Virus record (IMG/VR): IMGVR_UViG_3300020411_002554 | Location: 1-22,497 of that record | Strand: one strand, 5' to 3' | Source of the DNA: a virus | DNA: 22,497 nt | Shown here: positions 1-16,775 of the stretch, one piece after another | Layout of the letters: each line of letters starts with the position of its first letter | Numbering within the stretch: position 1 is the first letter of the stretch | The notes under the pieces: model-generated | Databases searched by the model: none | Told to the model about the DNA's origin: nothing | What the model saw: the letters and a program-made list of their open reading frames with translations, nothing else | Position numbers and translations under genes: made by a program

Positions 1-79
1 CGGGGGGTTGTTTATAATTCCGATGGATCCCCTAAGCTATAAACGACCCAGATCGACCTTTAAATATAAAGAAGAATGA
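1..79 (+). other. possible 3' end of an upstream gene
   Basis: Two forward frames are open from the left edge. Frame 1 reads RGVVYNSDGSPKL and stops at 40-42. Frame 2 reads through a segment ending RPRSTFKYKEE and stops at 77-79. Either could be the C-terminus of a gene that begins outside the window; frame 3 stops at once (15-17). Both peptides look protein-like, but too little is visible to name a family or to choose between them. The inverted repeat at 5-49 overlaps both readings. Confidence 0.25.
5..49. repeat. 12-bp inverted repeat (hairpin)
   Basis: The left arm GGGTTGTTTATA (5-16) pairs with the right arm TATAAACGACCC (38-49) over 12 positions, with one G-U wobble if transcribed, around a 21-nt loop. 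The loop contains the palindrome GGATCC. No T-run follows directly; the nearest is T8 at 83-90, so this is not a standard intrinsic terminator. It could be an mRNA-end or processing hairpin, or a protein-binding site. The function is unknown. Confidence 0.6.
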
Positions 80-96
80 AAATTTTTTTTCCCATA

Positions 97-102
97 TATA
101 AT
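97..102 (+). promoter_or_regulatory. candidate -10 box before the AbrB-like gene
   Basis: A perfect TATAAT lies 22 bp upstream of the start codon at 125. No convincing -35 hexamer is found at 16-18 bp spacing, where the sequence reads GAATGA or similar. In DNA this AT-rich the box could be chance, so it is a weak candidate. Confidence 0.25.
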
Positions 103-124
103 TTCGACACAGGTTTCGATTCAT

Positions 125-301
125 ATGAAAAAAAATTCTGGAAAAATTTTTGAATCCATTCAGGTCGATTCAGTAACAAATCATTATTATGTTGAGTTAC
201 CTGAATGGGTCGTTAATGATTTTGGATGGTATGAGGGATCTGAAATTGAACTTACATTAGATGGCAATGAAATCGTTATTACTGAAAGAGAAAATGACTA
301 A
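125..301 (+). CDS. AbrB/MazE-like small protein (58 aa)
   Basis: This encodes 58 residues starting MKKNSGKIFE. Its second half follows the SpoVT-AbrB/MazE swapped-hairpin pattern: a strand leading to LPEWVVNDFGW, then YEGSEIELTLDG, then NEIVITERE. That matches the family pattern of lP..l...lgw.eGd.iel..dg..i.i. Members are usually dimeric DNA-binding proteins, such as transition-state regulators or antitoxins. No partner toxin is visible: the next gene overlaps its end and has no toxin signature I recognise. The start is the first ATG of the open frame; only a weak AGG lies upstream. A DNA-binding role is inferred from fold resemblance, and the small size leaves room for error. It could act on the palindromic repeats or the promoter just downstream, but nothing in the sequence proves this. 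Confidence 0.6.
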   Translation: MKKNSGKIFESIQVDSVTNHYYVELPEWVVNDFGWYEGSEIELTLDGNEIVITEREND

Positions 302-461
302 TCCAACTTATCACATATACTTAAAGAACAATTGTTTGTTTAAAGATTTAAATGAGTGGGAGTTTAATATTATATGGAGAAGGATATATAAGTCGTATTT
401 TACAGAAGATTTAACATATGAAAAGTTAATCGAACCTGAGATGGTCGATGCATCATATTGA
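294..461 (+). CDS. hypothetical protein, 55 aa
   Basis: This small protein starts MTNPTYHIYLKNNCLFKDL and is followed by a region rich in aromatic and charged residues (EWEFNIIWRRIYKSYF, then TEDLTYEKL). I chose the ATG at 294, which overlaps the stop of the preceding gene in an ATGACTAA arrangement typical of translational coupling; the in-frame ATG at 261 would overlap that gene by about 40 bases. A purine-rich stretch (GAAAGAG) precedes the start. I associate short proteins with a similar YHxYLK start with cyanomyovirus genomes, but know of no function. The last codons lie in the first copy of a 15-bp direct repeat, so the C-terminus (VDASY) borders a local duplication. It is probably cytoplasmic, with no signal peptide or membrane segment. 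Confidence 0.65.
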   Translation: MTNPTYHIYLKNNCLFKDLNEWEFNIIWRRIYKSYFTEDLTYEKLIEPEMVDASY

Positions 462-486
462 GGTATCCTTGGATGCATCATATTGA
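447..486. repeat. 15-bp direct repeat with palindromic cores
   Basis: GATGCATCATATTGA occurs at 447-461 and again at 472-486, a 25-bp period. Each copy begins with the 8-bp palindrome GATGCATC. The first copy is the end of the 55-aa gene including its stop; the second runs into the -35 hexamer at 483-488. It may be a local duplication that carried the stop region forward, or a paired operator beside the promoter. Confidence 0.75.
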
Positions 487-511
487 CAATTTCTATATAA
501 TAATGTATGAT
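483..511 (+). promoter_or_regulatory. sigma70-type promoter (TTGACA-17-TATGAT)
   Basis: A perfect -35 hexamer TTGACA (483-488) is followed after exactly 17 bp by TATGAT (506-511), a one-mismatch -10. Transcription would start near 518, leaving a leader of about 16 nt before the glycosyltransferase ATG at 534. This is the host vegetative promoter type, unlike the phage late boxes further on. The upstream gene ends 22 bp before the -35. Confidence 0.75.
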
Positions 512-533
512 ATGAATGTAATTACAACACGTT

Positions 534-1289
534 ATGGCTAAAGGATTTACAGTAAAGGCAAACCCTCCTGCTGCTAAAAAAGAAACAGAATGGGATTATG
601 ATAAAGCAAAAGAATTACTTAAGGGAAAATCAGTAGTATTTTGTTTACCAGGTAGAGGAGTATCTTATACTTACTTAAAGGCATTTGTTCAGCTATGTTT
701 TGATCTAGTGCAATGTGGAGCAAGTATACAAATATCTCAAGATTATTCATCAATGGTCAATTTTGCCCGTTGTAAGTGTCTTGGAGCAAATGTATTAAGA
801 GGACCAGATCAATTACCTTGGGATGGTAAGTTAAATTATGATTATCAATTATGGATTGACTCAGATATAGTTTTTAATTCTGAGAAATTCTTTCAGTTAG
901 TTTTGATGGATCAGGATATAGCGTCTGGTTGGTATTGCACCGAAGACGGCAAAACCACCTCAGTTGCACATTGGATGGAAGAGGATGATTTTCGTAGCAA
1001 TGGTGGTGTAATGAATCATGAGACACTCGAAAGTATATCCAAGCGTAAGAAACCATTTACTGTAGATTATGCAGGTTTCGGATGGTTATTGATTAAAAAA
1101 GGAGTCTTTGAGAATGATGGAATGAAGTATCCTTGGTTCGCACCGAAGATGCAAGTATTTGAATCAGGAGAAGTGCAAGATATGTGCGGTGAGGATGTTT
1201 CTTTCTGTCTTGATGCAAAAGAAGCAGGTTTTGAGATCTGGTGTGATCCTAGAATTCGTGTAGGGCATGAAAAAACAAGAGTCATATAA
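534..1289 (+). CDS. GT-A-type glycosyltransferase (251 aa)
   Basis: This is a putative nucleotide-sugar glycosyltransferase. After a short lysine-rich N-terminus, VVFCLPGRG (34-42) begins a Rossmann-like strand and loop. WIDSD (107-111) carries the DxD metal/nucleotide-sugar motif (D109, D111). GEDVSFCLDAKEAGFEIW (219-236) matches the family's ED-x-x-F-C-x-x-A-x-x-AGF segment, and H245 in VGHEK is placed like the C-terminal metal-binding histidine of many GT-A enzymes. About 250 aa is enough for a single catalytic domain. There is no signal peptide or transmembrane helix, so it is probably cytoplasmic. It is the first gene of a unit bounded by a sigma70 promoter and a terminator, and its last 23 bases overlap the next gene. 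Only a weak ribosome binding site is visible. Donor and acceptor are unknown; a phage structural protein, phage DNA or host surface glycan are all possible. Confidence 0.75.
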   Translation: MAKGFTVKANPPAAKKETEWDYDKAKELLKGKSVVFCLPGRGVSYTYLKAFVQLCFDLVQCGASIQISQDYSSMVNFARCKCLGANVLRGPDQLPWDGKLNYDYQLWIDSDIVFNSEKFFQLVLMDQDIASGWYCTEDGKTTSVAHWMEEDDFRSNGGVMNHETLESISKRKKPFTVDYAGFGWLLIKKGVFENDGMKYPWFAPKMQVFESGEVQDMCGEDVSFCLDAKEAGFEIWCDPRIRVGHEKTRVI

Positions 1290-1431
1290 TATTCTTATAA
1301 AGGATAAGGTAGTATTTTCTGGTCTTTCAGAGTATGAAATGTTTGAGAGACTAGAAGATCTTTCGATAGAGTTCTATCAGACAGGTATACCTGATCCAAA
1401 TGACATAAAAACCAAAATTATAGAGGAATAA
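1267..1431 (+). CDS. hypothetical protein, 54 aa, acidic
   Basis: The ATG lies inside the end of the glycosyltransferase gene in another frame, giving a 23-base overlap and probable translational coupling. The product starts MKKQESYNILIKDKVVFSGL. It continues with an acidic helical stretch (SEYEMFERLEDLSIEFYQTG) and ends IPDPNDIKTKIIEE. I recall similar short proteins, with a beta hairpin followed by an ExxFxxxEDLxxEFYxTG helix, from cyanomyovirus genomes as conserved hypotheticals; no function is known to me. It has no membrane segment. A clean frame, co-directional overlap and a following gene with a good ribosome binding site make it convincing as a real gene. Confidence 0.7.
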   Translation: MKKQESYNILIKDKVVFSGLSEYEMFERLEDLSIEFYQTGIPDPNDIKTKIIEE

Positions 1432-1433
1432 AC

Positions 1434-1580
1434 ATGGCAAAAGCAAAAACTGGACTTAATGGAAACGTTTTCGTTGAGTCAATACCCAAAAAATCTCGTC
1501 AAGGGAACGGAAAACACTCAAAATACTCCGCAACATCCCGTAACTCGGCTCGTAAAAGGTATAGAGGGCAAGGAAAATGA
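1434..1580 (+). CDS. small highly basic protein, 48 aa
   Basis: This protein starts MAKAKTGLNGNVFVESIPKK and is then dominated by Arg, Lys, Ser, Gly and Asn, ending KRYRGQGK. I count 14 Lys/Arg and a single acidic residue, so it is strongly cationic. A clear ribosome binding site (AGAGG, 1422-1426) sits 7 nt before the ATG and overlaps the end of the previous gene, from which it is separated by 2 bases. By hand count the gene is about 41% GC, much higher than the structural genes downstream, with codons such as CGT, CCC and TCC. I recall near-identical short proteins in cyanomyoviruses as conserved hypotheticals. Charge and low complexity suggest nucleic-acid binding, but that is inference. 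An intrinsic terminator begins 4 bases after its stop. Confidence 0.75.
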   Translation: MAKAKTGLNGNVFVESIPKKSRQGNGKHSKYSATSRNSARKRYRGQGK

Positions 1581-1584
1581 CCAG

Positions 1585-1609
1585 AGCGTCTCGAAAGAGA
1601 CGCTTTTTT
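1585..1609 (+). terminator. intrinsic terminator
   Basis: A perfect 8-bp stem, AGCGTCTC (1585-1592) with GAGACGCT (1597-1604), closes a GAAA tetraloop. The T-run covers 1604-1609, its first base being the last of the stem. The GNRA loop and strong stem stand out in this AT-rich DNA. It ends the glycosyltransferase unit and insulates the late operon. Confidence 0.93.
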
Positions 1610-1621
1610 AGTGTTTTTACT

Positions 1622-1629
1622 TATAAATA
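1622..1629 (+). promoter_or_regulatory. T4-type late promoter box, distal
   Basis: An exact TATAAATA, the T4 late-promoter -10 element recognised by the gp55-type sigma factor with no -35 needed, lies 12 bp after the terminator T-run and 53 bp before gp25. Together with a second copy 26 bp downstream it should drive the baseplate operon late in infection. Confidence 0.8.
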
Positions 1630-1647
1630 AAGAATTGAGATTATAGA

Positions 1648-1655
1648 TATAAATA
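1648..1655 (+). promoter_or_regulatory. T4-type late promoter box, proximal
   Basis: This is a second exact TATAAATA, 27 bp before the gp25 start codon. Transcription would begin about 6 bp further on, leaving a leader near 20 nt. In tandem with the box at 1622 it gives two late starts for one operon. Confidence 0.8.
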
Positions 1656-1682
1656 AATCTAGCAAACTGTTTACTAAATTGA

Positions 1683-2081
1683 ATGAAAACTAGGGTATCT
1701 AGGTCATTTAAAGATATTAATTTATCATTTAAGCCCCATCCAATCACAAAAGATATTACAGTCATCAAAGATGCGAATGCAATCAAGAGATCTGTAAGAA
1801 ATTTGGTAGAAACAATGCCAAGAGAAAGGTTTTTTGCTTCTAATTTAGGAACTGATATACGAGGAAGTCTTTTTGATTTCTGTGATTTTGGTACTGCTTC
1901 TGTTATACAGAAACAAATTATAACAACGATTGAAAATTATGAACCAAGAGTGGATAATTTGAATGTTGAAGTATTTCCAAGACCAGATAACAATGAATTT
2001 GAAGTAAATATCTTCTTTGAAATCATTGGTCAACAGTTTCCTGCTCAAGCATTTCAATTCATATTAGAGTCATCAAGATAA
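1683..2081 (+). CDS. 25: baseplate wedge subunit gp25
   Basis: This is the gp25-like baseplate wedge protein (GPW/gp25 family), which in T4 sits at the wedge core with gp6 and gp53 and contacts the sheath. The 132-aa length matches the T4 protein. The family pattern is visible: ITKDITVIKDANAIKRSVRN (21-40) with the I.N..AI..S..NL signature, MPRERFF (45-51), NLGTDIRGSLFDF (54-66), and the conserved EPR (87-89) followed by VDNLNVEVFPR. The family was once called lysozyme-like, but its role in the virion is structural. It is the first gene after the tandem late promoters and lies 1 bp before gp6. No clear Shine-Dalgarno is seen before the ATG, which is the first in the frame. Confidence 0.95.
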   Translation: MKTRVSRSFKDINLSFKPHPITKDITVIKDANAIKRSVRNLVETMPRERFFASNLGTDIRGSLFDFCDFGTASVIQKQIITTIENYEPRVDNLNVEVFPRPDNNEFEVNIFFEIIGQQFPAQAFQFILESSR

Positions 2082-2082
2082 T

Positions 2083-4005
2083 ATGCCATTTACTAAATTT
2101 TCAAACTTAGACTTTGATCAGATAAAGACATCAATCAAAGATTATTTAAGAGCAAACTCAGATTTTACTGATTTTGACTTTGAAGGATCTAATTTTTCTG
2201 TTTTAATTGATACTCTTGCATATAATACTTACATAACTGCAGTTAATTCCAATTTAGTTGTTAATGAATCGTTTTTAGACTCTGCAACGGTTAGAGAAAA
2301 CGTTGTTTCTTTAGCAAGAAATATTGGTTATGTTCCTAGATCAAGAACTGCGGCAAAAGCAACTATATCATTTAATATTGAATCGATTTCAGACCTGTCA
2401 ATGCCCTCTACAGTGACTCTTAAAGCAGGTCTAGTGTGCATTGGTACTGGTAATAATGTTACTTATACTTTCTCTATTCCAGAGGATATAACGACCACTA
2501 CAGTATTAAAGGGAACAGCAGATAATCCAGCTGGTTATACAGCATCATTTAATGATATTGTTGTTTATCAAGGAACATATTTAAAAAAATCTTTTAAAGT
2601 TGATGGATCTTTAGATCAAAGATTTATATTAGATAATTCATTTATTGATACATCAACAATGATCATTTACATAAAAGATGATTTAAATGGTGCTGATAAA
2701 GGAATTTTATATAGTAAAATAGACAATATTTTAACACTAAAATCAACATCAAGAACATATTTAATACAAGAAGTGCAAGATGAGAAATATGAAATTCTTT
2801 TTGGTGATGGTATTTTTGGTAAAAAGTTAGAAAATGGTAAAATAATTGATGTTAGTTACATTATTACCGATGGAAAAGATGGTAATGGACCATCAGTATT
2901 CTCATTTGCAGGAACTGTAGAAACAATTCCAGGTTCAGTAGTTGATTTAAATGGAACACCATCAATAAGCGTTACTTCTGGTGCCTCTAATGGGGGTGAT
3001 ATTGAACCAATAGACTCTATTAAGTATTTTGCACCTAGACTTTACTCAGCACAGTATAGGGCGGTTACAGGAAGGGATTATGAGTCAATAATACAGCAAA
3101 TTTATCCAAATACTGAGAGTGTTTCTGTTGTTGGTGGTGAAGAAATAGATCCACCTCAATTTGGAACAGTTTTTATTACAATTAAACCAAAAAATGGTGA
3201 ATTTGTATCAGATTTTGATAAAACTTCTATACTTTCTGAATTAAAGAATTATTCATTAACTGGTATAAACCAAAAAATTATAGATTTGAAAATTTTACAT
3301 ATTGAGGTTGATTCCTCTATTTATTATGATGCATCTAAAGTTAGAAATATAGATGGATTGAAAACAGATGTTGTTAATGGATTGACTGAATATTCCAAAT
3401 CTGTGGATATTAATAAATTTGGTGGTAGATTTAAATATAGTAAAGTTTTGAGTGTAATTGATAATATTGAAGATTCAATTACTTCAAATATAACAAAAAT
3501 TAGAATTAGAAGAAATTTAAATGCTCTTGTAAATCAATTTGCACAATATGAACTTTGTTTTGGTAATGAATTTAATGTTAAATCTGAAGGATTAAATATT
3601 AAGAGTACTGGATTTAAGATTGCAGGTGAATCTGCAAATGTATATTTAACAGATACTCCAAATGCTGATAAAAAAGAAGGAATTGTATCTATTGTAAAGG
3701 TAGGTGAGGATGGTGAAAAAATAATCATTGTTGAAAATGCAGGAACAGTTGATTATATTAAAGGTGAAATTAATTTAACTACAATCAATATAATATCAAC
3801 TTCAAAACCAAATAATATTATAGAGGTTCAAGCATTTCCAGAATCAAATGATATTATTGGTCTTCAAGAGTTATATTTGAAATTTAACATTGCTAATAGT
3901 ACAATAAATATGGTTAAAGATACTATTTCATCAGGTGATCAAATATCTGGTGTTGGATTTAAAGTTACTTCAAGTTACACAAACGGAGCATTAATAAGAG
4001 GATAA
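2083..4005 (+). CDS. 6: baseplate wedge subunit gp6
   Basis: This is the gp6-type wedge protein of the Baseplate J-like superfamily; in T4, gp6 dimers form the inner ring that links wedges and transmits the contraction signal. The 640 aa are close to the T4 length. The N-terminus is typical: a start near FSNLDFDQIKTSIKDYL, then FDFEGSNFSVLIDTLAYNT (about 34-52), an NESFLDSATVRENVVSLA segment and IGYVPRSRTAA (about 87-97). The central signature is at about 314-350, with a YFAPRLYSAQYRAVTGRDYE-type segment followed by IYPNTESVSVVGGEE. The gene lies 1 bp after gp25, and its 3' end carries the ribosome binding site of the next gene. No damage is seen. Confidence 0.95.
   Translation: MPFTKFSNLDFDQIKTSIKDYLRANSDFTDFDFEGSNFSVLIDTLAYNTYITAVNSNLVVNESFLDSATVRENVVSLARNIGYVPRSRTAAKATISFNIESISDLSMPSTVTLKAGLVCIGTGNNVTYTFSIPEDITTTTVLKGTADNPAGYTASFNDIVVYQGTYLKKSFKVDGSLDQRFILDNSFIDTSTMIIYIKDDLNGADKGILYSKIDNILTLKSTSRTYLIQEVQDEKYEILFGDGIFGKKLENGKIIDVSYIITDGKDGNGPSVFSFAGTVETIPGSVVDLNGTPSISVTSGASNGGDIEPIDSIKYFAPRLYSAQYRAVTGRDYESIIQQIYPNTESVSVVGGEEIDPPQFGTVFITIKPKNGEFVSDFDKTSILSELKNYSLTGINQKIIDLKILHIEVDSSIYYDASKVRNIDGLKTDVVNGLTEYSKSVDINKFGGRFKYSKVLSVIDNIEDSITSNITKIRIRRNLNALVNQFAQYELCFGNEFNVKSEGLNIKSTGFKIAGESANVYLTDTPNADKKEGIVSIVKVGEDGEKIIIVENAGTVDYIKGEINLTTINIISTSKPNNIIEVQAFPESNDIIGLQELYLKFNIANSTINMVKDTISSGDQISGVGFKVTSSYTNGALIRG
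3996..4001 (+). promoter_or_regulatory. ribosome binding site of the giant gene
   Basis: AAGAGG lies 5 nt before the ATG at 4007, inside the last codons of gp6. It is the strongest Shine-Dalgarno in the structural block and supports the chosen start of the giant gene. Confidence 0.7.
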
Positions 4006-4006
4006 T

Positions 4007-7000
4007 ATGATAAGTACGGGTATTGATAAAAGAATTAAAGTTCAACAAATTATTGAAAATCAACTTCCAGAATTTATATTAGCTGAAAGTCCAAAAACTG
4101 TAGATTTTTTAAAACAATATTATATTTCTCAAGAATATACTGGTGGTCCAATAGATTTAGTTGATAATTTAGATCAGTATTTAAAATTAGATAATTTAAC
4201 TCCAGAAGTTATTACTGGAGAAACAAAATCAACTGGAATAACTACTTCTGGTGATACTACAATTTCAGTTGAAACTACAAAAGGATTTCCAAATGAGTAT
4301 GGTTTATTAAAAATTGGAAGTGAAGTTGTAACATATACAGGTATAACAACTAATAGTTTTACTGGATGTAAACGTGGATTTAGTGGAATAACAACATATA
4401 AAGATGCTAATAATCCATCAGAGATAATATTTTCAGATTCATCTGCAGATTCTCATGTAGAAGGAATCAAGGTACAGAATTTAAGTGCTTTATTTTTACA
4501 AGAATTTTATAAAAAGTTAAAGAAAACTTTTACACCTGGATTGGAAAACTCTGATTTTGTAAGTGATTTAGATGTAAATAATTTTATAAAGGAAGCAAGA
4601 ACATTTTATCAAGCAAAAGGTACAGAAGAATCTTTTAGAATTTTATTTAATGTATTATATGGGGTAAATCCAAAAGTAATTGATCTTGAACAATATTTAA
4701 TAAAACCATCGTCAGCAAGATATGTAAGACGAGAAAGAATAGTAGCAGAAAGAATATCTGGAGATCCTTTAAAACTAAAAGGACAAACAATAATTAGAAC
4801 AACAGATTCCTCTACTACAGCTTCAATTTCTGAAGTTGAAGTACTGACAGGAATAGGTGGAATATATGGAACATCAGATTATTATAGTTTAGACATTTTT
4901 GTTGGATATGATGATGAAGAATTTGTAACTGGAACATTTAATGTAACAGGTAAAACTAAAGTAATATCTAATGTCACTACAGAAAGCAAAGTTATAACAG
5001 TTGATTCTACTATTGGTTTTGGTGCAACGGGTACAGTTATTGCTGGTCTTAATACAAGTATTACATATACCGATAAAACTGTAAATCAATTTTTAAATTG
5101 TTCAGGTATAACCTCACCAATAACATTAGGTTCTGATCTTATTATTGATGATAAGATTTTTGGGTATGAAAATGGAGATTTAACGAAGAAAGTAGAGTTA
5201 AGAATAACTGGAGTTTTAAAAGAACTTGTTCCCTCTCCAAATAATAAATTAGCTCTAGAAGGAGAAACAATTAGTATTAAGAGTATTGGTGAAATAATTC
5301 AAAATCCAGATTATGATGCAACTCAAAAAGAAATATTTGCAAATTCTTGGAATTATAATACTTCAAGCAATTACGATGTTAAAGAAACTACTACAAATCA
5401 AAGTGCAAGTTTTATCTTAAAATCTACTATAGATAAATCTAGTTTAAAAGAAGGAGATTCTGTTCAATTTTTAGTTAAAAATAGTGATCCATTTTCTTTA
5501 GGAACACTTATTGCAGAATCTGTTGTTAGTGAGATTAAAAAATCTGAAAATAAAGTTTTATTAGAAGATACAATAACTGATTTAAGTGCAAAAAATCAAT
5601 ATGTAATTAGAAGATTATTAAAGAAAGCATCTAGCACATATGATTTAATTAAATTTGGAAATGATACTTTAACTACAGAAATTCAAAATGTTTATAATGA
5701 ATCTGATGAAAGTTTATATGTAGCAAGTAATTCCTTACCAGCATATGAAATTGATACAAATATATTAAAATCTACTATTTCTAACGTAGTTGTAAATGAT
5801 ACTATTCGGGATTATAATCCAATAACTAGAAAATATTCAACAATATCATTTAATTCTGATACTACTTTTATAACTGGAGATAGAGTATATTATGAACCAC
5901 AAGGAAATCCTCTGGTTGGAATATCAACTGGATATTATTATATTAAAAATTTTGAAGCAAATAAAATAAAATTATATCAATCATTAGCATTTATTAAATC
6001 AAATGATAATATTGAATTTGATATTCCATTAGATACTACCACTTCACATACTTTTATTTTATCTGATCATTATGATAGGAAAATAACTCCTCAAAAAATA
6101 TTAAAGAAATTTCCAATAGATGTTAAACAAAATCTAGGTAAAAAAGTAAAAACTATTCCTGGATCTGTCGGAATGTTGATAGACGGTGTTGAAATAGAAA
6201 ATAATAAGTCTACAGATAGTATTTTTTATGGTTCTATAAGTAATTTTTCAGTTATTGGTAATGGAAGTGATTATGATGTAGTTAATCCTCCTGTAATTGA
6301 TATAGATTCTATAGAATCTCCTGTACCAACTAAAGCATTAGTAAGTCCTGTTATAAAGGGTGATATAAAGGAATTTATAGTTGATCCACAAGAATATGAT
6401 ATAGAAAATGTTGCATCAATAAAAATATCTGGTGGAAACGGAGGAGGAGATTTATTACAACCAATTATTTCTTATAGAAATAGAGTTTTAGAATTTAATG
6501 GAGTAACTACATCATTTGGTGGTGGTGTTGATACTTATTCAGAAACTATAACATTTAGTACTCCACATAATTTGACTAGTGGTCAAGTATTAATTTATGA
6601 TAGAAATAAAAATCAACAATTAGGAATTGGAACATTTAAGGGTAGTAATATTTCTGCTTCTGAATTTTTAATAGATGGTTTGCCATATTGGCCAGAGGTT
6701 GTAGGTTTGTCTACAATTAGACTTTATAGAAGTGAAAATGATTATATTAGTGGTATTAATACAATAGGATTTACTGAGTCATTTAAAGATGGTATTCATA
6801 AATTTAGAATAAAAGATTCTAAGAAAACTTTATCTGGAGTTAGAATTGTAGAGACTGGTAAACCATATTATTGTAGAAAGGTTTATGTTAATCCTACTGG
6901 AATATCTACAGAAAAATCAATAGTTACATTTAATAATCATGGATTTTCTGATGGAGAATTAATTTCATATCAAGCATCTGTTGGATTAGGATCTACAGCA

Positions 7001-10000
7001 CCTGAATCTATTTCTGGATTAACTACTATAAGTCAATATAAAATAATTAAAATTGATGATGATAGTTTTAGGTTATCTAATGCTGGCGTAGGTGGAACTG
7101 ATAATACTGATTATAATCGTAAAAAATATGTTAATTTTAATACTAAAGGAACTGGATATCAACTATTTAAGTATCCTGATATAGAAGTTACTACAGAAGT
7201 AATATATTCAGTATCAACTTCAGATAAAATAAAAATAACACCAGTAATAAAAGGTGAAATAATAGATGCATCTTTATACCAAAAGGGAGTTGGATATGGT
7301 GTTACTGATATTATTAATTATGAAAATACTCCAAATATTAATGTTAAAAATGGTTTAACAAGAACTGATAAACTTATAACTCCATCTTTACTTCCTATAA
7401 TATCTAATGGAAAAATAGTTAATGTTAATATTCAAGATGGTGGTGATGAATTTTATTCTCCTCCAGATTTAACTGTTGTTGGTGATGGTATAGGTGCTAA
7501 ATTAAGAGCAGTTATTGATACAGATGAAAATTCAGAAACATATCTAAAAATTATTAATGTAATTATTGTAAATGGTGGATCTAATTATAGCTATGAGAAA
7601 ACAAAAGTAAATATAACTCCAAGAGGAAAGAATGCTGCATTTAATATTTCAATTGATGAATTAAGTTTATGTGGTATTCAAACAAATTCACCATATTCTT
7701 CAAGATATAGTGATAAAAAATTAAGTTTATCTAATGATGGGTTAAAATATTCTATTGTTGGATATTCAACTCAGATTGGGGAAGATGAATTTAGACAGGA
7801 AAGTGGTAAACATTCACCAATAATTGGATGGGCATACGATGGAAATCCAATTTATGGTCCATATGGATATGTGGATCCTTTAGATGTTGATTCTGGTATA
7901 AAAATATTAGAAACTGGATATGTAAAAAATTCTACTATTGAAAATAGATCAGATTTACCTTTTGAAATAGGATTTTTTGTAGATGATTATAGATATTCTC
8001 CATCATCTTCTACTGATTTAGATGAGCATAATGGTAGATTCTGTAAAACTCCAGAATATGAAGATGGTGTGTATGCTTATTTTGTATCTATAAATTCTCT
8101 AACAAAAGAACCAAAATATCCATATTTTATTGGAAAAACATATAAATCTATACCAAGTGCTTTAGATAGTAGATCAACATTAACACAATCATTTGATTTT
8201 AATAATTCAAATTTAGTTAGAAATACTTTTCCATATAAATTAAATGATAATTCAGCTAATAATGATTTTATTGTTGAATCTAATGAAATATTATCACAAA
8301 TAACAAAAATTACTGCAGTATCTCAAGGTAGTATTGATTCTTTAGAAATTGTTAAATCTGGAGAAAATTATAATGTTGGTGATCTTGTAAAATTTGATAA
8401 TAGTAATACAGAGGGTAGTGGAATAAGTGCTTCTGTATCTAAATTAGATGGTAAGGAAATAGATAATATTGATACTTCATATGAATCTTTAAATAATGTA
8501 ACTTTTATTTGGAAAAATTCAAATACAGTTTCTGTTTTTGTTCCAACTACTCATCAATTAGAAATTGGTAATAATGTTGAAATATCAGGGTTAACTACGG
8601 ATATTTCATCTGCAGATGGTTTATCATTAATAGGTAATAAAGTCGTATCTGGTATTCCTACTGAATCTACTATTTTATATAAGCAAGTTGCTTCAAATGG
8701 AACTCCTGGTGTAGTAACTGATATTTACGTATATAAGACAGATCTTATTTCTATTGGAAGTAGTATAGGAATAGGTACTGAAAAATTAGTGGTTTTAAAT
8801 AAATTTGATGATAGAAATATTTTAAGAGTTAAAAGAGGTGTTACTGGAACAGCACACACTTTATCATCAAAAGTAAATTTAATTCCTAAATCATTTAATA
8901 TAAACTTTAGATCAGATTCTTTTGATTCAAAATTAAATGATATTGTTTATTTTAATCCTAGAGAATCTATAGGAGTTGGAACAGCATTAGGCAACCCTGG
9001 TATATCTTCATCAATAACTGTTTCTATTGGTGATACTGGAAGACAAGTATCTATTCCAGCTCAAAGTATGTATTTGCCAAATCATCCATTTACTACTGGC
9101 CAGCAAATTACCTTCAAAAAACCACCTTCAGGTGGATTATCTATAGAGGTTTCTAGAGATGGTTCAGCAGCTGAATCATTTAATATACCATTATCAGGAT
9201 CTAGTCAAACATTATATGCTATTAATAAGTCTAAAGATTATATTGGAATTGTAACTCAAGTAGGTTTAACTACATCTAACGGATTATATTTTAGATCTAA
9301 TGGTGATAATGATTATGAATATTCATTTGAATCTAATTTTAATCAAATAACTGGAAATTTAGAAAGAATAAATTCAAAAGTTACTTTAACTACATCTCAT
9401 ACTTTATCTATGGGAGATATAGTTAGTTTAAATATAAATCCAAATCAATCAGTTGGTATTGGAACTTCTACTTCTGTTAGGGTTAAATATAATTCTGTAA
9501 TTGATAGTGTATTAATAAATCAAATTGGTTTTACTTCTGCAGGAATTAATACATCTACAAATATAATAACTTTAAATTCTCATGGATTAAAAACAGGTGA
9601 TAAGGTTTATTATGATGCTACAGATGATATATCTAGTGGATTGCAAACTGGTAGTTATTTTGTTTATAAAGTCAGTGATAATCAGTTAAAGTTAGCAGAT
9701 ACTTTATATGATTCTCAATTAATTCCACCAAATGTTGTAAATTTGGTATCAATTGGTGGGTCAGAACATAGTCTATCTTTAATTAATCCTCCAATAAGTG
9801 TAGTAAAAAATAATAATTTAGTTTTTGATCTTTCAGATTCTTCATTATCTGGTTTAGATTTTAAAATATATCAAGATCATGATTTTAATAATAATTTTGT
9901 GTCTACTGGAGCAACAAATATTAATGTTGTTTCTACTTCAGGAACAATTGGAGTTACTTCAACTGCCTCATTAACACTAAATTATTCTATTGAAAATCCA

Positions 10001-13000
10001 ATAAATCTTTTTTATAATGTTGAAAAATCAGGTTTTATAAGTACATCCGATATAGATGTTGTTAATGGATCTAAAATATTATATGTTAATAGTAAATATA
10101 ATAAAGATTATTCAATTGTTGGAATTGGAACAACTACATTTGATATAAGATTATCCGAAAAACCAGAAAATTTAGTATATACTCAAAATAATACATCCGA
10201 TTTAGAATATTCAACTAATTCAAAAACTGAAAGAGGATCTATTAATAAACTTAGTTTAGATTTTGGTGGAAGTGGATATAAAGAGTTACCTAAATTTGTA
10301 AGTGTTGCTTCTACTACAGGAGTTAATGCAAAAATAATACCAGGATCTTCTACTGGTAATGTAATTGAAAATACTGAATTAGGAAATATTGGATTTGAGT
10401 ATTCTTCAGATAAAACTTTAAAGCCATTAGCTAGAATATCTCCAGTAATAACTACAAAAAATTCAAATAAGATAGTATCTATAAGTATTGTTAGTGGTGG
10501 AAGAGATTATATAACACCACCTACATTAACTATTGTTGATCTTGATTCAAAAGAAATTGTGAATAGTGGTTCTTTACAAGCAAATGTAAGTAAAGCGACA
10601 CAATCAATTTCTAGTGTTGATATAATTTCTGTTCCAAAAGGTATTGGAGATTGTAAGATCTTTAGTGTAGATAATACAAATGGTGTTCAAATAACAAATA
10701 TTGCAATTGGTGGTACAGTAGTTACAAATAATCTTACTGGTTTAGTAACATTTACTTTGGCAACACCAATTTTAGGATTTACTACTGCACCATTTGCAAT
10801 TGGGGATAGTGTATTTGTCGAAAATGTTGAAAATGAGTATGGAAATACTATAAATTCTCCCAATAATCAATTTAATTTTTATCCAGTAACTGGAGTTGTT
10901 GGAGGAAGTAATCCAAATCCATTTAAATTTGAAATTAATTTAAATAAAATAGTAACAAATCCTGGATTAGCAAAAACTAGTCAAACATATGCTTCTGTAG
11001 TTAATTTTAGTAATTATCCAAAATTTGATATTACAACAGATCTTTCACCGTTTAGTATTGGTGAAGATATTTTGGTTTCTAGAAATAATGAATTATTTAA
11101 AAACGTTGGTCTTACTTTAGATAAAGAATCAAATAATTACGTAAAAGTTTCGGGTAATTATGATTTAAAGGTTGGTGATAAATTAAAAGGTTTATTTACT
11201 GGTTCAATAGCTACTATTAATAGTTTATTTGAAAATAAAGGAGATTATTTAGTAGATTATTCTTCTCCTAAAAGTAAAGGTTGGTCTGATGATGTTGGTA
11301 AATTAAATATAGATTACCAAGTAATTCCAGATAATGATTATTATCAAAATCTATCCTATACAATTCAAAGTCCAATTACCTATCAAACATTAGTAAGCCC
11401 TGTAAATAAATTATTACATACAAGTGGTCTTAAAAACTTTGCTGATGTTGGAATATCATCTGCGGTTGGAGTTGGTTCAACTACAACTGTAGATTCTACA
11501 TCAATTATAAGGGATTTAACAACTGAAAATAGAGTAGATGCTATTGATAACTTTGATTTAGTACGAGATATTGATATTATACAAAATCCTGAAAGATCGA
11601 AATTTATTAATTTCCAAAATAAAAAACTTGCAAATTATTTTGAATGTTCAACTAATAATGCTCTTAAAATAGACGATATTAGTACTTTATTTTCAGATTC
11701 TACAAATAATGCTAGATTAGATGGTAGTTTACCACTTACTAATTCTTTTAATAGATTTTTAATTCAAACTAAAGTTCCCCCTTCTCCAACAACGGGATTA
11801 TTAGAGACTACAAATAGTCTTCAATTAACAGAATTGGTAACATCTGTAGATTTTACTAATAAAAATATTTACACTATTCAAAAAGGTTCTTTAAGTGATG
11901 AAACTAAATTAGTTGATATTCTTGGGTATAAAGATATAGATGATAATTATCTTTTACAATTTAATCCAGTTGATGTATATAATACTGATTTAGATATTAA
12001 AATTTTAGATCAATCATTTATATCTGGAGTAAATCCTGTTGGAATTGCTACAACAAGTCTTGGATTTGTTAGTTTGACAGGAAGAAATATTAATGTATCT
12101 GCTTCTACTACTTCAACTATAATATCCTCAAATATTGATAATATAGAATCTTATTTTGCTACTATTTCAATAAATGATGATACTGCGGTTGAAAATAATA
12201 TAGTAGAACTTTATGTAACACATGATGGTCAAGATTCTTATATTTCAAATTATTCATTAGAAACCAATACTGGAAATTCAATAGGAACATTTACATCTAA
12301 TTATGAAGCTTCAAGTGGAATTTTATCATTAAATTATGAAAATGATAGAACAAATCAAGTATTAGTTAAATCTAGAATAGTTGGTTTTGGTACAACTGCA
12401 TCTGGTACTGGAACATATAGATTTAAATCAGATTCACAAATTGATGGATCTGAAAATTCTGCTAGATTAGAATCCAAATTTGTTGGTATAGCAGCAACAT
12501 CCACAATAGCTGGATTTACAACATCTAAAGATACTTGTATTAAGAGTATAGTTAGAGTTTCTATAGGTAATACCAGTGCATTACATCAAGTTTTGATGGG
12601 TCATGATGGAAGTAATACTTTTATTACCCAATACCCATTTATATCTATTGGATCAGAATCTGGAATCGGTACGTTTACTTCAGAATTTGATGGATCTAAT
12701 ATTAATTTAATATTCCATCCAGATTCTAATTTTATAGGAGTTGGTAATATACAAGTTCAATCATATAATGAAATTATTAATTCAGATCAAGATTTAATTA
12801 ATATTACACCAACTTTAACTTATGGTAAGTCATCAGAATCTTTATCTCTATTACAATTTGATTCTATAAATGGTCAAAGATCAAATAGAGGTTCATTTAA
12901 ATTAAAAAATAAAGGTAATTTAATATTTGCTAATTATTTTGAACCATCTGTTGGTCTTAATACAGTAACTGGTCAATTTACAATTGAAAATAATTTCTTT

Positions 13001-16000
13001 AATAGAAATGAAAGATTAATATACACAGCTGGTTCATCTGTAGATGGTATTACTGCTTCACCAATAGTGATGTCTAATGGAAATCCTTTACCTAGTGAAG
13101 TTTATGTATCTCTTCCTTCAGGAACAACTAATTCAAATGTATTTGGATTATCAACTACTAGAGGAGGAACTTCTCTGACTTATAATAGTATAGGAGCAGG
13201 AAATAGACATTTATTGGAAATGTATGAAAAAAATGAAAAAACTCTAATTACTCTTGATAATGTAATTCAATCACCAATATCATACACACCAATAACATCT
13301 ACATTGTCTAATAATATTAGTGGTCAAGTTTCTATATCAACTTCAATAATATCTTTAGCTGGAATAACATCTATTGTTATTAATGATGTTTTAAAAGTAA
13401 ATGATGAATATTTAATAGTAAATAATGTTGGTTTTGGAACTACTAGTAGTGGTCCTATATCAAATACTGGATCTTTAGCATTAGTAGATGTTACTAGAGC
13501 ATCTATTGGATCAACATCAACTGTTCATTCTGATAGTTCTAGTATTAGATTGTATAAGGGTGGATATAATATAGTTAAGGAAAATATTTACTTCACTAAT
13601 CCTCCTAGAGGAAAGAATTTACTTATAAAAGATGAATCTAATCGTGATTTTGCTAGAGCAAGTTTTAGTGGAAGAGTATTTTTAAGACAAGATTATTCTT
13701 CTAATGCAATTTTTGATGATGTTTCACATGAATTTACAGGTATAGCTCAAACCTTTAGAACATCTATATCTGGTGTTAATACAACTGGTCTTACTACTGG
13801 TAGCAGTTTCTTAACTATTAATGGTATATTCCAATATCCAACTACTGAAAAGAATCCTTTAAACAATTATAATTTTAGTGAATCTGCTGGAATAACAAGT
13901 TTTGTATTTAGTGGAATTTCTTCTGCAGATGGAACACAAATAATAAGTGAATCTGATGTTAATCAAAATCAATTACCAAGATCTGGTCAAATTATATCAA
14001 TTGGATATACAGGTGGATTGGGATATGCACCTTTAGCTGGTGCTGCTGTTACAGCAATTACTAGTGCTGGTGGAACTATTACTTCTGTAGGATTGGGAAG
14101 TATGGATTTTCATGGATCTGGATATCGTTCTGGGTTAAGTACATCGGGAGATGGTATTATTCATATTGATGTTGTAGATGAAGCATATGATCATAGATTT
14201 GTAAGTTCTGGTATTAACTCTATCACCATTAAATCTGGTGGAATTGGAGTAGATGCTACATTTACGCCTACAGATGCTCCTTATACATCATCAACGGGTA
14301 TTGTAACCCTTACAAAGGATAATCATGGTCTCATTACATCAGATTCATATACAGCAACTACAGGAACCGTTTATAATCCCACTACAGGTGTTTTAACTAT
14401 AAAACTTAGTTCATCACCTTCACCAGCATTAGTAAATGGTCAAATAGTAAAATTTGATAACAATTCTCTTACATTTACATGTGCTAAGGATCTTCATGCT
14501 ACAAATCATACATATCCAAGATCAACTGATCCTGTAGGTGGCAAATGGTTACCAATATCTAATGTAACTGGAGGTGACCAATTTGATATTAATGTTCTTG
14601 AAACTATTCCATCATCAAATACAGGTATCCATACATTTGTAACTGCTACTACTAATGGTGTTAAGAGATCTGCCAATAAGGTTTCTATTGCTACTAGTGC
14701 TTTAGTATATACTTGTGCAAGAGATGCTTATAGCACCGATCATGCATATCCAAGAACATCAGATCCAGCTTATAGTACCGATTTAAATATTCTTGAGGCT
14801 ACTGATAATTACTTTAAAGTTGGAGTTGGAACTGGTGGTGGAGCTGGAATTGGAGCAACAATAACTGCAACAGTAGGTATTGGTGGAACTTTGGCATTTA
14901 CTGTTGTTGGTGGTGGATCTGGATATATTAATCCAGTTGTTATGTCACCATCTCCAACATACGAAAATCTTACAATAACTGGTACTTCTAGATTAGGTCT
15001 TGGTGCTACAACAGATACTGGTATAGGATTATTATTGACTATTGACGTTGGTGGTAGTAATACAACTGGTATTGGATCTACTTTATTTGAAGTAACGGAA
15101 TTTAAAATTGCTAGATCTGGATATGGGTTTAGAAAAGGTGATAAGTTTAAACCTGTTGGATTGGTTACTCATAAATCATTATCTTCACCAATTTCAGAAA
15201 TAGAATTTACAGTTAATGAAGTATTTACAGATACTTTCTCTTCTTGGAATGTTGGTGAATTTGATTATATTGATTCTATTGCTTATCTTCAAGATGGTGT
15301 TAGAACAAGATTCCCATTGTATTATAATGATGAATTAGTATCTTTTGAATCTGAAGTAGGTTCTGCATTAGAAATGCAATCTTTACTATTAATATTTGTC
15401 AATAATGTTTTACAGATTCCAGGAGAATCTTATATTTTTGAAGGAGGAACTTCTTTCCAATTCACTGAGGCACCAGATCAAAGTGATAATATCGCAATCT
15501 TCTTCTTTAAAGGAACAAATAATTTAGATGTTACCTTTGTTGAGGTTGATGAAAGTATTAAGTCTGGTGATGAAGTTCAAATATTAAACAATCCTTCTAA
15601 TATTTTACCCACTGGAGATCAAAATATTAGAACAATAGCTGGAATAACAACTGCTGATACTATTGAAACAGAATTATATTATGCAAAAGGTATTGATGAA
15701 GTTAATTTTAAACCTTTAAGATGGTTAAAACAAAAAACTGATAAATTTGTAAATGGTGAATTAATCACTAAAGTTAGACCTTTAATAGAACCATTGGTAT
15801 TCCCTGATGCAAGAATTATTAAAGATGTAGCATCTGGTGACTCCACTATCTATTTGGATAGTATTAATAATTTCTTCTCTTACGATAGTCCTACAACAGT
15901 AGATACTTTAGTTATTGATGATAATATTACTAGACAATCTGCTAATCTTAATGCAGTTGTCTCTGCTGCTGGAACCATTCAATCAATAACAGTTACTGAC

Positions 16001-16741
16001 GGTGGAAGTGGATATGTTGGAGCAACAACATCTATTTCAATTGGTATTCCTACCATAGGCATTACTACTTTTATAAAAGATGATGGAACAGTTGGAACAG
16101 GAGAAACTGCAATAGCAACTGCATCAATTACTGCTGGAATTATTACTAGTATTACTATTACTAATCCAGGTGTTGGATATACTAGTTCCTCTGTTCCTAA
16201 TGTTATAGCACCAGTTCCAATAACACCATCCGAAGAAATTACTGGATTTACTGGTTCTGCAGGTTTTTCAGGTATTGTAACGGGTATAAGTGTTCTTAGT
16301 AGTTCTACTATAAAATTCTTCCTTGATAAAGGAACTGGAACATTTGGTGGATTAGCAAATGGAGATCCAATTTATATCTTTGATACTTCTGTTGGTTCTG
16401 GAGCAACTTCTACTATAATATCAACAGGTGCACCTGTAGGTGTTGGAACAACATTCTTTGACAATATTTACATTGTTAGTTCTCTAAGTTCAAGTAGTAA
16501 TTTTGGTGAATTTGTTGCAGGAGTAAAGACAGATACATCCATTGTAGGTATTGCTACAGAAAATACTATTTGTGGTAAATTCTCTTGGGGTAAGTTAACT
16601 GGTGGTAGTAGATCATCAACAAATCCACTTACACTTACTGTTTCTGGTAACACTGTTAATTCGGGATTGACAACTTTCCCTAGAGTGCAAAGAAGAGGTT
16701 CTGGTCTAAGAGAAACAGGTGCTATAAAAGATTCAACTTAA
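4007..16741 (+). CDS. giant baseplate/structural protein in gp7 position (4244 aa)
   Basis: A single uninterrupted frame of 4244 codons occupies over half the window; the product should exceed 400 kDa. By position between gp6 and gp8 it is the counterpart of T4 gp7 (1032 aa), but it is about four times longer. The N-terminus (1-250) is globular: LKQYYISQEY (about 35), GCKRGFSG (about 119-126), then FYQAKGTEESFRILFNVLYG and a basic YVRRERIV segment (about 200-246). The body is repetitive beta-type sequence. HG-x-x-x-GD modules lie near 615, 973 and 1854. GG-x-GY-like motifs lie near 751, 1145, 1189, 2087, 2164, 3370, 3635, 3998 and 4053. A YHYH-like domain spans 1265-1385, a duplicated module 2719-2925, and paired C-D-H-YPR-DP motifs 3489-3587. 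A conserved-looking C-terminal part has FDYIDSIAYLQDGVRTRF (about 3750) and ends FPRVQRRGSGLRETG. I see no coiled coil or membrane segment. It is preceded by a good ribosome binding site 1 bp after gp6. A wedge role is inferred from position and N-terminal character; orthology to gp7 over the full length is not claimed. Confidence 0.85.
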   Translation: MISTGIDKRIKVQQIIENQLPEFILAESPKTVDFLKQYYISQEYTGGPIDLVDNLDQYLKLDNLTPEVITGETKSTGITTSGDTTISVETTKGFPNEYGLLKIGSEVVTYTGITTNSFTGCKRGFSGITTYKDANNPSEIIFSDSSADSHVEGIKVQNLSALFLQEFYKKLKKTFTPGLENSDFVSDLDVNNFIKEARTFYQAKGTEESFRILFNVLYGVNPKVIDLEQYLIKPSSARYVRRERIVAERISGDPLKLKGQTIIRTTDSSTTASISEVEVLTGIGGIYGTSDYYSLDIFVGYDDEEFVTGTFNVTGKTKVISNVTTESKVITVDSTIGFGATGTVIAGLNTSITYTDKTVNQFLNCSGITSPITLGSDLIIDDKIFGYENGDLTKKVELRITGVLKELVPSPNNKLALEGETISIKSIGEIIQNPDYDATQKEIFANSWNYNTSSNYDVKETTTNQSASFILKSTIDKSSLKEGDSVQFLVKNSDPFSLGTLIAESVVSEIKKSENKVLLEDTITDLSAKNQYVIRRLLKKASSTYDLIKFGNDTLTTEIQNVYNESDESLYVASNSLPAYEIDTNILKSTISNVVVNDTIRDYNPITRKYSTISFNSDTTFITGDRVYYEPQGNPLVGISTGYYYIKNFEANKIKLYQSLAFIKSNDNIEFDIPLDTTTSHTFILSDHYDRKITPQKILKKFPIDVKQNLGKKVKTIPGSVGMLIDGVEIENNKSTDSIFYGSISNFSVIGNGSDYDVVNPPVIDIDSIESPVPTKALVSPVIKGDIKEFIVDPQEYDIENVASIKISGGNGGGDLLQPIISYRNRVLEFNGVTTSFGGGVDTYSETITFSTPHNLTSGQVLIYDRNKNQQLGIGTFKGSNISASEFLIDGLPYWPEVVGLSTIRLYRSENDYISGINTIGFTESFKDGIHKFRIKDSKKTLSGVRIVETGKPYYCRKVYVNPTGISTEKSIVTFNNHGFSDGELISYQASVGLGSTAPESISGLTTISQYKIIKIDDDSFRLSNAGVGGTDNTDYNRKKYVNFNTKGTGYQLFKYPDIEVTTEVIYSVSTSDKIKITPVIKGEIIDASLYQKGVGYGVTDIINYENTPNINVKNGLTRTDKLITPSLLPIISNGKIVNVNIQDGGDEFYSPPDLTVVGDGIGAKLRAVIDTDENSETYLKIINVIIVNGGSNYSYEKTKVNITPRGKNAAFNISIDELSLCGIQTNSPYSSRYSDKKLSLSNDGLKYSIVGYSTQIGEDEFRQESGKHSPIIGWAYDGNPIYGPYGYVDPLDVDSGIKILETGYVKNSTIENRSDLPFEIGFFVDDYRYSPSSSTDLDEHNGRFCKTPEYEDGVYAYFVSINSLTKEPKYPYFIGKTYKSIPSALDSRSTLTQSFDFNNSNLVRNTFPYKLNDNSANNDFIVESNEILSQITKITAVSQGSIDSLEIVKSGENYNVGDLVKFDNSNTEGSGISASVSKLDGKEIDNIDTSYESLNNVTFIWKNSNTVSVFVPTTHQLEIGNNVEISGLTTDISSADGLSLIGNKVVSGIPTESTILYKQVASNGTPGVVTDIYVYKTDLISIGSSIGIGTEKLVVLNKFDDRNILRVKRGVTGTAHTLSSKVNLIPKSFNINFRSDSFDSKLNDIVYFNPRESIGVGTALGNPGISSSITVSIGDTGRQVSIPAQSMYLPNHPFTTGQQITFKKPPSGGLSIEVSRDGSAAESFNIPLSGSSQTLYAINKSKDYIGIVTQVGLTTSNGLYFRSNGDNDYEYSFESNFNQITGNLERINSKVTLTTSHTLSMGDIVSLNINPNQSVGIGTSTSVRVKYNSVIDSVLINQIGFTSAGINTSTNIITLNSHGLKTGDKVYYDATDDISSGLQTGSYFVYKVSDNQLKLADTLYDSQLIPPNVVNLVSIGGSEHSLSLINPPISVVKNNNLVFDLSDSSLSGLDFKIYQDHDFNNNFVSTGATNINVVSTSGTIGVTSTASLTLNYSIENPINLFYNVEKSGFISTSDIDVVNGSKILYVNSKYNKDYSIVGIGTTTFDIRLSEKPENLVYTQNNTSDLEYSTNSKTERGSINKLSLDFGGSGYKELPKFVSVASTTGVNAKIIPGSSTGNVIENTELGNIGFEYSSDKTLKPLARISPVITTKNSNKIVSISIVSGGRDYITPPTLTIVDLDSKEIVNSGSLQANVSKATQSISSVDIISVPKGIGDCKIFSVDNTNGVQITNIAIGGTVVTNNLTGLVTFTLATPILGFTTAPFAIGDSVFVENVENEYGNTINSPNNQFNFYPVTGVVGGSNPNPFKFEINLNKIVTNPGLAKTSQTYASVVNFSNYPKFDITTDLSPFSIGEDILVSRNNELFKNVGLTLDKESNNYVKVSGNYDLKVGDKLKGLFTGSIATINSLFENKGDYLVDYSSPKSKGWSDDVGKLNIDYQVIPDNDYYQNLSYTIQSPITYQTLVSPVNKLLHTSGLKNFADVGISSAVGVGSTTTVDSTSIIRDLTTENRVDAIDNFDLVRDIDIIQNPERSKFINFQNKKLANYFECSTNNALKIDDISTLFSDSTNNARLDGSLPLTNSFNRFLIQTKVPPSPTTGLLETTNSLQLTELVTSVDFTNKNIYTIQKGSLSDETKLVDILGYKDIDDNYLLQFNPVDVYNTDLDIKILDQSFISGVNPVGIATTSLGFVSLTGRNINVSASTTSTIISSNIDNIESYFATISINDDTAVENNIVELYVTHDGQDSYISNYSLETNTGNSIGTFTSNYEASSGILSLNYENDRTNQVLVKSRIVGFGTTASGTGTYRFKSDSQIDGSENSARLESKFVGIAATSTIAGFTTSKDTCIKSIVRVSIGNTSALHQVLMGHDGSNTFITQYPFISIGSESGIGTFTSEFDGSNINLIFHPDSNFIGVGNIQVQSYNEIINSDQDLINITPTLTYGKSSESLSLLQFDSINGQRSNRGSFKLKNKGNLIFANYFEPSVGLNTVTGQFTIENNFFNRNERLIYTAGSSVDGITASPIVMSNGNPLPSEVYVSLPSGTTNSNVFGLSTTRGGTSLTYNSIGAGNRHLLEMYEKNEKTLITLDNVIQSPISYTPITSTLSNNISGQVSISTSIISLAGITSIVINDVLKVNDEYLIVNNVGFGTTSSGPISNTGSLALVDVTRASIGSTSTVHSDSSSIRLYKGGYNIVKENIYFTNPPRGKNLLIKDESNRDFARASFSGRVFLRQDYSSNAIFDDVSHEFTGIAQTFRTSISGVNTTGLTTGSSFLTINGIFQYPTTEKNPLNNYNFSESAGITSFVFSGISSADGTQIISESDVNQNQLPRSGQIISIGYTGGLGYAPLAGAAVTAITSAGGTITSVGLGSMDFHGSGYRSGLSTSGDGIIHIDVVDEAYDHRFVSSGINSITIKSGGIGVDATFTPTDAPYTSSTGIVTLTKDNHGLITSDSYTATTGTVYNPTTGVLTIKLSSSPSPALVNGQIVKFDNNSLTFTCAKDLHATNHTYPRSTDPVGGKWLPISNVTGGDQFDINVLETIPSSNTGIHTFVTATTNGVKRSANKVSIATSALVYTCARDAYSTDHAYPRTSDPAYSTDLNILEATDNYFKVGVGTGGGAGIGATITATVGIGGTLAFTVVGGGSGYINPVVMSPSPTYENLTITGTSRLGLGATTDTGIGLLLTIDVGGSNTTGIGSTLFEVTEFKIARSGYGFRKGDKFKPVGLVTHKSLSSPISEIEFTVNEVFTDTFSSWNVGEFDYIDSIAYLQDGVRTRFPLYYNDELVSFESEVGSALEMQSLLLIFVNNVLQIPGESYIFEGGTSFQFTEAPDQSDNIAIFFFKGTNNLDVTFVEVDESIKSGDEVQILNNPSNILPTGDQNIRTIAGITTADTIETELYYAKGIDEVNFKPLRWLKQKTDKFVNGELITKVRPLIEPLVFPDARIIKDVASGDSTIYLDSINNFFSYDSPTTVDTLVIDDNITRQSANLNAVVSAAGTIQSITVTDGGSGYVGATTSISIGIPTIGITTFIKDDGTVGTGETAIATASITAGIITSITITNPGVGYTSSSVPNVIAPVPITPSEEITGFTGSAGFSGIVTGISVLSSSTIKFFLDKGTGTFGGLANGDPIYIFDTSVGSGATSTIISTGAPVGVGTTFFDNIYIVSSLSSSSNFGEFVAGVKTDTSIVGIATENTICGKFSWGKLTGGSRSSTNPLTLTVSGNTVNSGLTTFPRVQRRGSGLRETGAIKDST
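7799..8155 (+). other. YHYH-like domain within the giant protein
   Basis: Residues about 1265-1385 contain HSPIIGWAYDGNPIYGPYG, the hallmark of the YHYH domain. Further on come LDEHNGRFCKTPEYEDGVYAYF (about 1338-1360, with H1341 and C1345) and YPYFIGKTY (about 1373-1381). In the position where many relatives have Y-H-Y, this copy has Y-A-Y. The domain is known from secreted bacterial proteins and from cyanophage structural proteins; its biochemical role is not established as far as I know. Confidence 0.8.
12161..12790 (+). repeat. tandem duplication of a ~127-aa module
   Basis: Two divergent copies lie at residues about 2719-2797 and 2850-2925 of the giant protein. Aligned landmarks are THDGQDSYISNY with GHDGSNTFITQY (offset 127 residues), SIGTFTSNYEASSG with GIGTFTSEFDGSN, and LSLNYEND with INLIFHPD. 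DNA identity is low, so the duplication is old. The module resembles the vtHDG..ayitEY...GTF units frequent in cyanophage structural proteins. Confidence 0.7.
14471..14767 (+). repeat. paired C-x2-D / H-x-YPR-x2-DP motifs
   Basis: Residues 3489-3509 and 3567-3587 of the giant protein share the frame C-A-K/R-D-x4-x-H-x-YPR-x-x-DP with exact 78-residue spacing (C3492/C3570, D3495/D3573, H3501/H3579, YPR 3503-3505/3581-3583). Cys is rare elsewhere in this protein, so conserved Cys, Asp and His at a fixed period suggest a structural or metal site. I recall the same motif in other marine phage structural proteins. Confidence 0.75.
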
Positions 16742-16746
16742 TATGG

Positions 16747-16754
16747 TATAAATA
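16747..16754 (+). promoter_or_regulatory. T4-type late promoter box before gp8
   Basis: An exact TATAAATA lies in the only sizeable gap (34 bp) of the structural block, 21 bp before the gp8 start. It gives gp8 and the downstream gene a late start of their own, independent of reading through the 12.7-kb giant gene. Confidence 0.8.
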
Positions 16755-16775
16755 AAGAAAAAAAGTCTATAAAAA

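Follow-up and report, generated by a model that had tools for sequence, protein, structure and literature searches.

The locus analysed in this work raises the question of whether a small group of genes, lying immediately ahead of the baseplate genes of a marine virus, is a recently acquired accessory cassette or an established transcription unit of its phage family. T4-like cyanophages are among the most abundant viruses of the oceans. The window (the whole stretch of DNA analysed, 22,497 nucleotides) is a fragment of such a phage, in which gp25 and gp6 open the baseplate operon directly after the unit; the slot of the unit is between a region of small genes and this late operon. An earlier note, made from the letters of the DNA, had described a promoter of the host type, three genes, a terminator and the late promoters that follow, and had proposed that the unit is a moron and its three proteins a functional trio.

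The same genome region, with its lineage-specific small genes, was covered by Sullivan et al. 2010 (PMC3037559); the portions of that article considered here contain no account of a promoter-terminator unit, of a single origin of the transferase or of a self-promoted p48. Early, middle and late expression clusters are conserved between phages P-HM2 and P-SSM2 (Thompson et al. 2016, PMC5082946), and open-access article text yielded no published expression timing for the transferase orthologue or the unit. In most of the records listed the transferase is labelled hypothetical.

Relatives were collected from IMG/VR, using the transferase, gp25 and p48 as queries, and from annotated phage records, for a total of about 250 loci. 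Promoter conservation was assessed in 129 distinct loci as the presence of a site scoring at least 10/12 inside the 150 bases upstream of a gene start. A maximum-likelihood tree of gp25 and gp6 comprised 155 loci, of which 126 carry the transferase and 29 lack it. The boundary downstream of p48 was studied in the 18 rows with a p48-gp25 gap below 200 bases, among which the window is counted twice (once as L009). A search of positions 1-4500 of the window gave no Rfam match to a known RNA element, and PADLOC gave zero hits that would link the unit to defence. The features of the locus are listed in Table 1; the three genes are packed as tightly as first described.

Table 1. Position of the unit and its neighbours in the window
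Feature	Position	Strand	Remarks
u58, 58-aa acidic protein	125..301	+	SpoVT/AbrB (MazE-type) fold
u53, 55-aa ORF	294..461	+	phrog_2626; matched by p54 profile
15-nt direct repeat GATGCATCATATTGA	447..486 (447-461, 472-486)	+	product of a 25-bp tandem duplication
sigma70-type promoter	483..511	+	TTGACA-17-TATGAT; expected start near 518
palindrome TGTAATTACA	517..526	+	at expected start site; kept in part of the clade, replaced elsewhere by other palindromes
putative GT-A glycosyltransferase	534..1289	+	phrog_1574; invariant D109 and D111 (DSD motif)
p54, 54-aa fast-evolving protein	1267..1431	+	phrog_3252; overlaps transferase ORF
p48, 48-aa basic protein	1434..1580	+	phrog_516; near-universal in T4-like cyanophages
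intrinsic terminator	1583..1606	+	10-bp stem, GAAA tetraloop, T run
late promoter box TATAAATA	1622..1629	+	
second late promoter box TATAAATA	1648..1655	+	
gp25, baseplate wedge	1683..2081	+	first gene of the late operon
gp6, baseplate wedge	2083..4005	+	

The promoter scores 11/12 and is among the two best of the 130 sigma70-like sites found by scanning 20 kb of the window. As 138 such sites were expected, there is no excess, and the window by itself is no proof of a promoter; the proof comes from conservation. Upstream of the transferase, 99% of the 129 loci have a site scoring 10/12 or better, which confirms the near-consensus promoter of the earlier note as a conserved class. The same test gave 0% for p54, 1% for gp25, 6% for gp6, 15% for u58 and 27% for p48, and 4.8% for shuffled sequences. 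Information per column amounts to 1.85 bits in the -35 hexamer and 1.62 in the -10 hexamer, against 0.80 in the spacer and 0.27 in the 20 columns upstream. Between the end of the promoter and the ATG of the transferase there are 22-23 nt in most loci and 38-39 nt in a subset.

Where u53 adjoins the transferase, its stop codon TGA is found inside the -35 TTGACA in 42 of 48 relatives; in the window, the tandem duplication parts the stop codon from the -35 box, and both are retained. At the expected transcription start the relatives carry perfect palindromes (TGTAATTACA, TGAATCGATTCA, GTTGTACGTACAAC and AAGTAACGTTACTT).

The annotated genome of P-SSM2 (Salacisavirus) allowed a comparison with known gene classes. 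This phage carries an orthologous transferase (89% identity) and p54 as PSSM2_106 and PSSM2_107 (T4-GC 102 and 103), shares the promoter of the window at 22 nt, and has p48, though unannotated; it differs by a 2OG-Fe(II) oxygenase gene between p48 and gp25, where the window has none. On the plus strand of its 40-140 kb region only 11 sites score 11/12; where an annotated gene begins no more than 40 nt after such a site, it is an early-region gene, gp55, the transferase or one hypothetical gene, the last with a leader of 6 nt and situated just before gp45. Over these 100 kb, strong intergenic sigma70-like sites lead to non-virion genes, gp55 and the transferase, and late boxes to virion genes, with TATAAATA-like boxes 29-59 nt ahead of them. 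This partition by gene class agrees with the proposal that a host promoter serves the unit separately from the late boxes.

At the 3' end, the terminator of the window, with its GNRA-type GAAA loop, has a folding energy of -15.7 kcal/mol (z = -4.2), and is as strong as was claimed. Directly after it stand the two late boxes, as also described, placed as T4-type late promoters are, with TATAAATA 30-60 nt before virion genes. Among the 18 short-gap rows, a hairpin-plus-T terminator directly follows p48 in 14 and a late box is present in 15; two of the four rows scored as lacking a terminator are without the transferase, and L078 has a visible hairpin that the scan missed. The stem sequences differ between loci, which argues for selection on terminator function. 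In the closest relatives (L083, L090-L105) one or two extra genes follow p48, and the terminator then stands just before the pair of late boxes, so that the frame from promoter to terminator to late boxes is conserved and the 3' cargo is variable. Among the inserts between p48 and gp25 are a 2OG-Fe(II) oxygenase and an AdoMet decarboxylase; most common is a protein of about 222 aa belonging to no Pfam family, with about 55 similar ORFs. Its gene lies 149-817 bases past the p48 stop in L099; in some clades it precedes the terminator, and elsewhere it lies near a late box. In the boundary scan most loci with inserts had no recognisable terminator after p48, and read-through into the inserted genes is therefore likely where that terminator is missing.

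Since the unit is co-directional with the late genes, it might also be driven by late promoters alone, the sigma70-like match being a relic. We consider this most improbable, because the hexamers are conserved above both the spacer and the upstream sequence, and because the terminator and late boxes stand after p48, not ahead of the transferase. As read from the sequences, the conserved promoter class and the recurrence of differing terminators at the same boundary make it almost certain instead that the unit is an operon of the host RNA polymerase, apart from the late baseplate operon.

A promoter and a terminator of its own are what a moron would have, and a recent, sporadic accessory cassette should further be scattered between conserved flanks. 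Comparison across relatives, which the earlier note had proposed as a check, gave a different picture. On the gp25+gp6 tree the presence of the transferase requires one change, on a single branch (SH-aLRT 97), against a mean of 26.9 after shuffling; a few losses could be missed, because sampling was partly by transferase query. At fourfold-degenerate sites, identity to the window is about 0.3-0.55 in the transferase, and gp25 and gp6 have similar values. Protein identity is mostly 83-93% (about 87%) in the case of the transferase; that of gp25, outside the nearest relatives, is mostly 55-75%. With synonymous sites saturated like those of its neighbours, and a protein more conserved than those of the baseplate genes, the transferase is, as judged from these comparisons, an old gene on which purifying selection acts strongly.

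Base composition had seemed to favour recent transfer. Third-position GC in the window is 0.25-0.31 in the transferase and p48 (534-1580) and 0.07-0.12 in gp6, gp7 and gp8 (2083-18425), and it is higher in the transferase than in gp6 in 155 of 160 loci. However, it is also raised in p48, with and without the transferase, so that this composition, found clade-wide, seems to reflect the codon usage of the unit and not a recent transfer. The accessory-cassette reading is thus very unlikely, and the transferase is of single origin in the sampled clade. A cellular donor of the transferase was rejected: in a scan of bacterial and archaeal genomes, the nine contigs found, with 74-90% identity, all came from metagenome bins, and phage DNA binned by mistake is their most likely source.

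We then considered the small proteins. p48 (consensus PKKTRQGxGKHTKYAATSRNxARKRYRGQGK) matches about 450 phage records, every one from a cyanophage or marine virus; the transferase matches 103. gp25 follows p48 directly in 76 of 77 p48-anchored loci, and in this sample the transferase lies upstream in 40 of the 66-67 loci with room for it. Elsewhere the upstream neighbours are PAAR/gp5-like genes (S-SM1, Syn9, P-RSM4, ACG-2014d), a 2OG oxygenase (P-SSM7) or others. In S-SM1 (SSM1_099, T4-GC 394) and Syn9 (gp96), for example, the p48 orthologue is found shortly upstream of gp25-gp6 as in the window, but it comes after a PAAR-type gene, the transferase is absent and there is no host-type promoter. 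T4 uvsY.-2 was rejected as a homologue of p48, as both sequence and gene order differ.

It had been suggested that both small proteins always travel with the transferase and form a functional trio with it, a reading that would make them its cofactors. Seen from the transferase, the constant company holds for p48, present in 142 of 142 loci with room, and fails for p54, found in 131 and missing in 11; such co-occurrence and the tight packing of the genes would fit a trio. Seen from p48, only about 100 of its records have the transferase and its upstream partner varies, and p54 can be missing; of the trio, only a transferase-p54 pair survives. A functional trio is accordingly unlikely. In the gene-order comparison p48 emerges as the constant element of the slot, and the tight partner of the transferase is another protein, u58 (see below).

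Loci without the transferase are also informative about the promoter. A TGnTATAAT promoter of its own precedes p48 in 18 of 37 of them, where 0.1 were expected, as opposed to 3 of 142 transferase loci; it ends 22-24 nt before the p48 ATG. Several further loci of this kind have TTGACA-type sites before p48, and in S-TIM5 the TGnTATAAT promoter is present even though p48 is not adjacent to gp25. Such promoters suggest that the host-type promoter before p48 is older than the transferase, the root of the tree being uncertain.

Of the 141 transferase loci that extend over 350 bases upstream, 122 contain u58; among 86 loci without the transferase, 0 do. On this exclusive linkage, u58 appears as the real companion of the transferase. 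Its sequence signature and predicted structure both place it in the SpoVT/AbrB fold: Pfam MazE is matched by 13 of 31 members (best E value 2.8e-5; the window member alone falls below the Pfam cut-off), and the AF2 model (pLDDT 87) has EcMazE and AbrB as its top solved structures in Foldseek. A protein of this fold, so exclusively linked, could be a dedicated repressor of the operon that binds the start-site palindrome, all the more as perfect palindromes of at least 12 bp occur in 28 of 115 leaders versus about 1.3% of shuffles. However, u58 is strongly acidic (10-14 D+E and 1-5 K+R among the members listed), the palindrome is missing from several clades, and, with transferase distance controlled for, u58 and the leader show no co-variation (partial r 0.07, p 0.11). 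The acidity and the missing co-variation leave the predicted operator role as only a lead, and we judge a dedicated repressor to be rather unlikely. The neighbouring u53 (294-461) and p54 (1267-1431), which flank the transferase, cross-match each other's profiles and are likely paralogues.

There is moderate evidence that the transferase is a GT-A glycosyltransferase. It has a DxD metal-binding motif, with D109 and D111 invariant and placed after a predicted central strand (104-108), and a PHROG glycosyltransferase match (3.5e-6); its homologues in S-TIM5 and Sf-CH5 are also annotated as glycosyltransferases. The best Foldseek matches of the model, a poor one (AF2 mean pLDDT 61, TM about 0.45), include LH3, beta4GalT and GtrB. 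The resemblance to these GT-A enzymes (LH3 glycosyltransferase domain, beta-1,4-galactosyltransferase, GtrB) lies in the DxD-type motif and, tentatively, in the predicted fold class; no sequence relationship to them was found in the PDB search, and Pfam, NCBIfam and PDB sequences gave no family-level match. The LH3 match is a glycosyltransferase paired with a 2OG-Fe(II) hydroxylase, and P-SSM2 has 2OG-Fe(II) oxygenase genes on both sides of the unit; by analogy, hydroxylation followed by glycosylation is conceivable. In one subclade (L114, L117, L135, L137, L167) the transferase profile match is split in two, about 90-140 bases apart, which suggests an insertion within the gene.

Taken as a whole, these observations are best explained by a self-contained host-RNA-polymerase operon of a T4-like cyanophage clade, and we consider this explanation, with the following roles and history, to be probable. 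From the conserved sigma70-type promoter, through a leader of about 22 nt, unmodified host polymerase would transcribe the transferase, p54 and p48 ahead of the late genes, up to the hairpin terminator that precedes the late boxes. During takeover the enzyme, as a metal-dependent GT-A glycosyltransferase, would transfer a sugar to a single, highly constrained acceptor; candidates are a glycan of the host envelope, a protein and a modified base. p48 would take part in takeover as a small protein that binds nucleic acid, and p54 and u58 would be accessory partners that evolve fast. The simplest history would be that p48 formed an older unit with a host-type promoter, and that the transferase and p54 came to lie between the two; the promoters of p48 and of the transferase may also simply be of one class, and the root of the tree is uncertain. 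More tentatively, p48 could be a takeover micro-protein that nearly all T4-like cyanophages carry and that has gone unrecognised, retained under a conserved promoter of the host type as an island of transcription between structural operons, with the very constrained module u58-transferase-p54 inserted behind its promoter and fixed in one large clade, a possibility that we regard as somewhat doubtful. If it were true, host modification and p48 would be switched on together.

A clade-wide unit of promoter, operon and terminator, whose enzyme is better conserved than the adjoining baseplate proteins, points to a function that matters in infection. Re-drawn in this way, the unit narrows the genes open to testing down to a few: p48 in almost all T4-like cyanophages, and the transferase and u58 in one clade.
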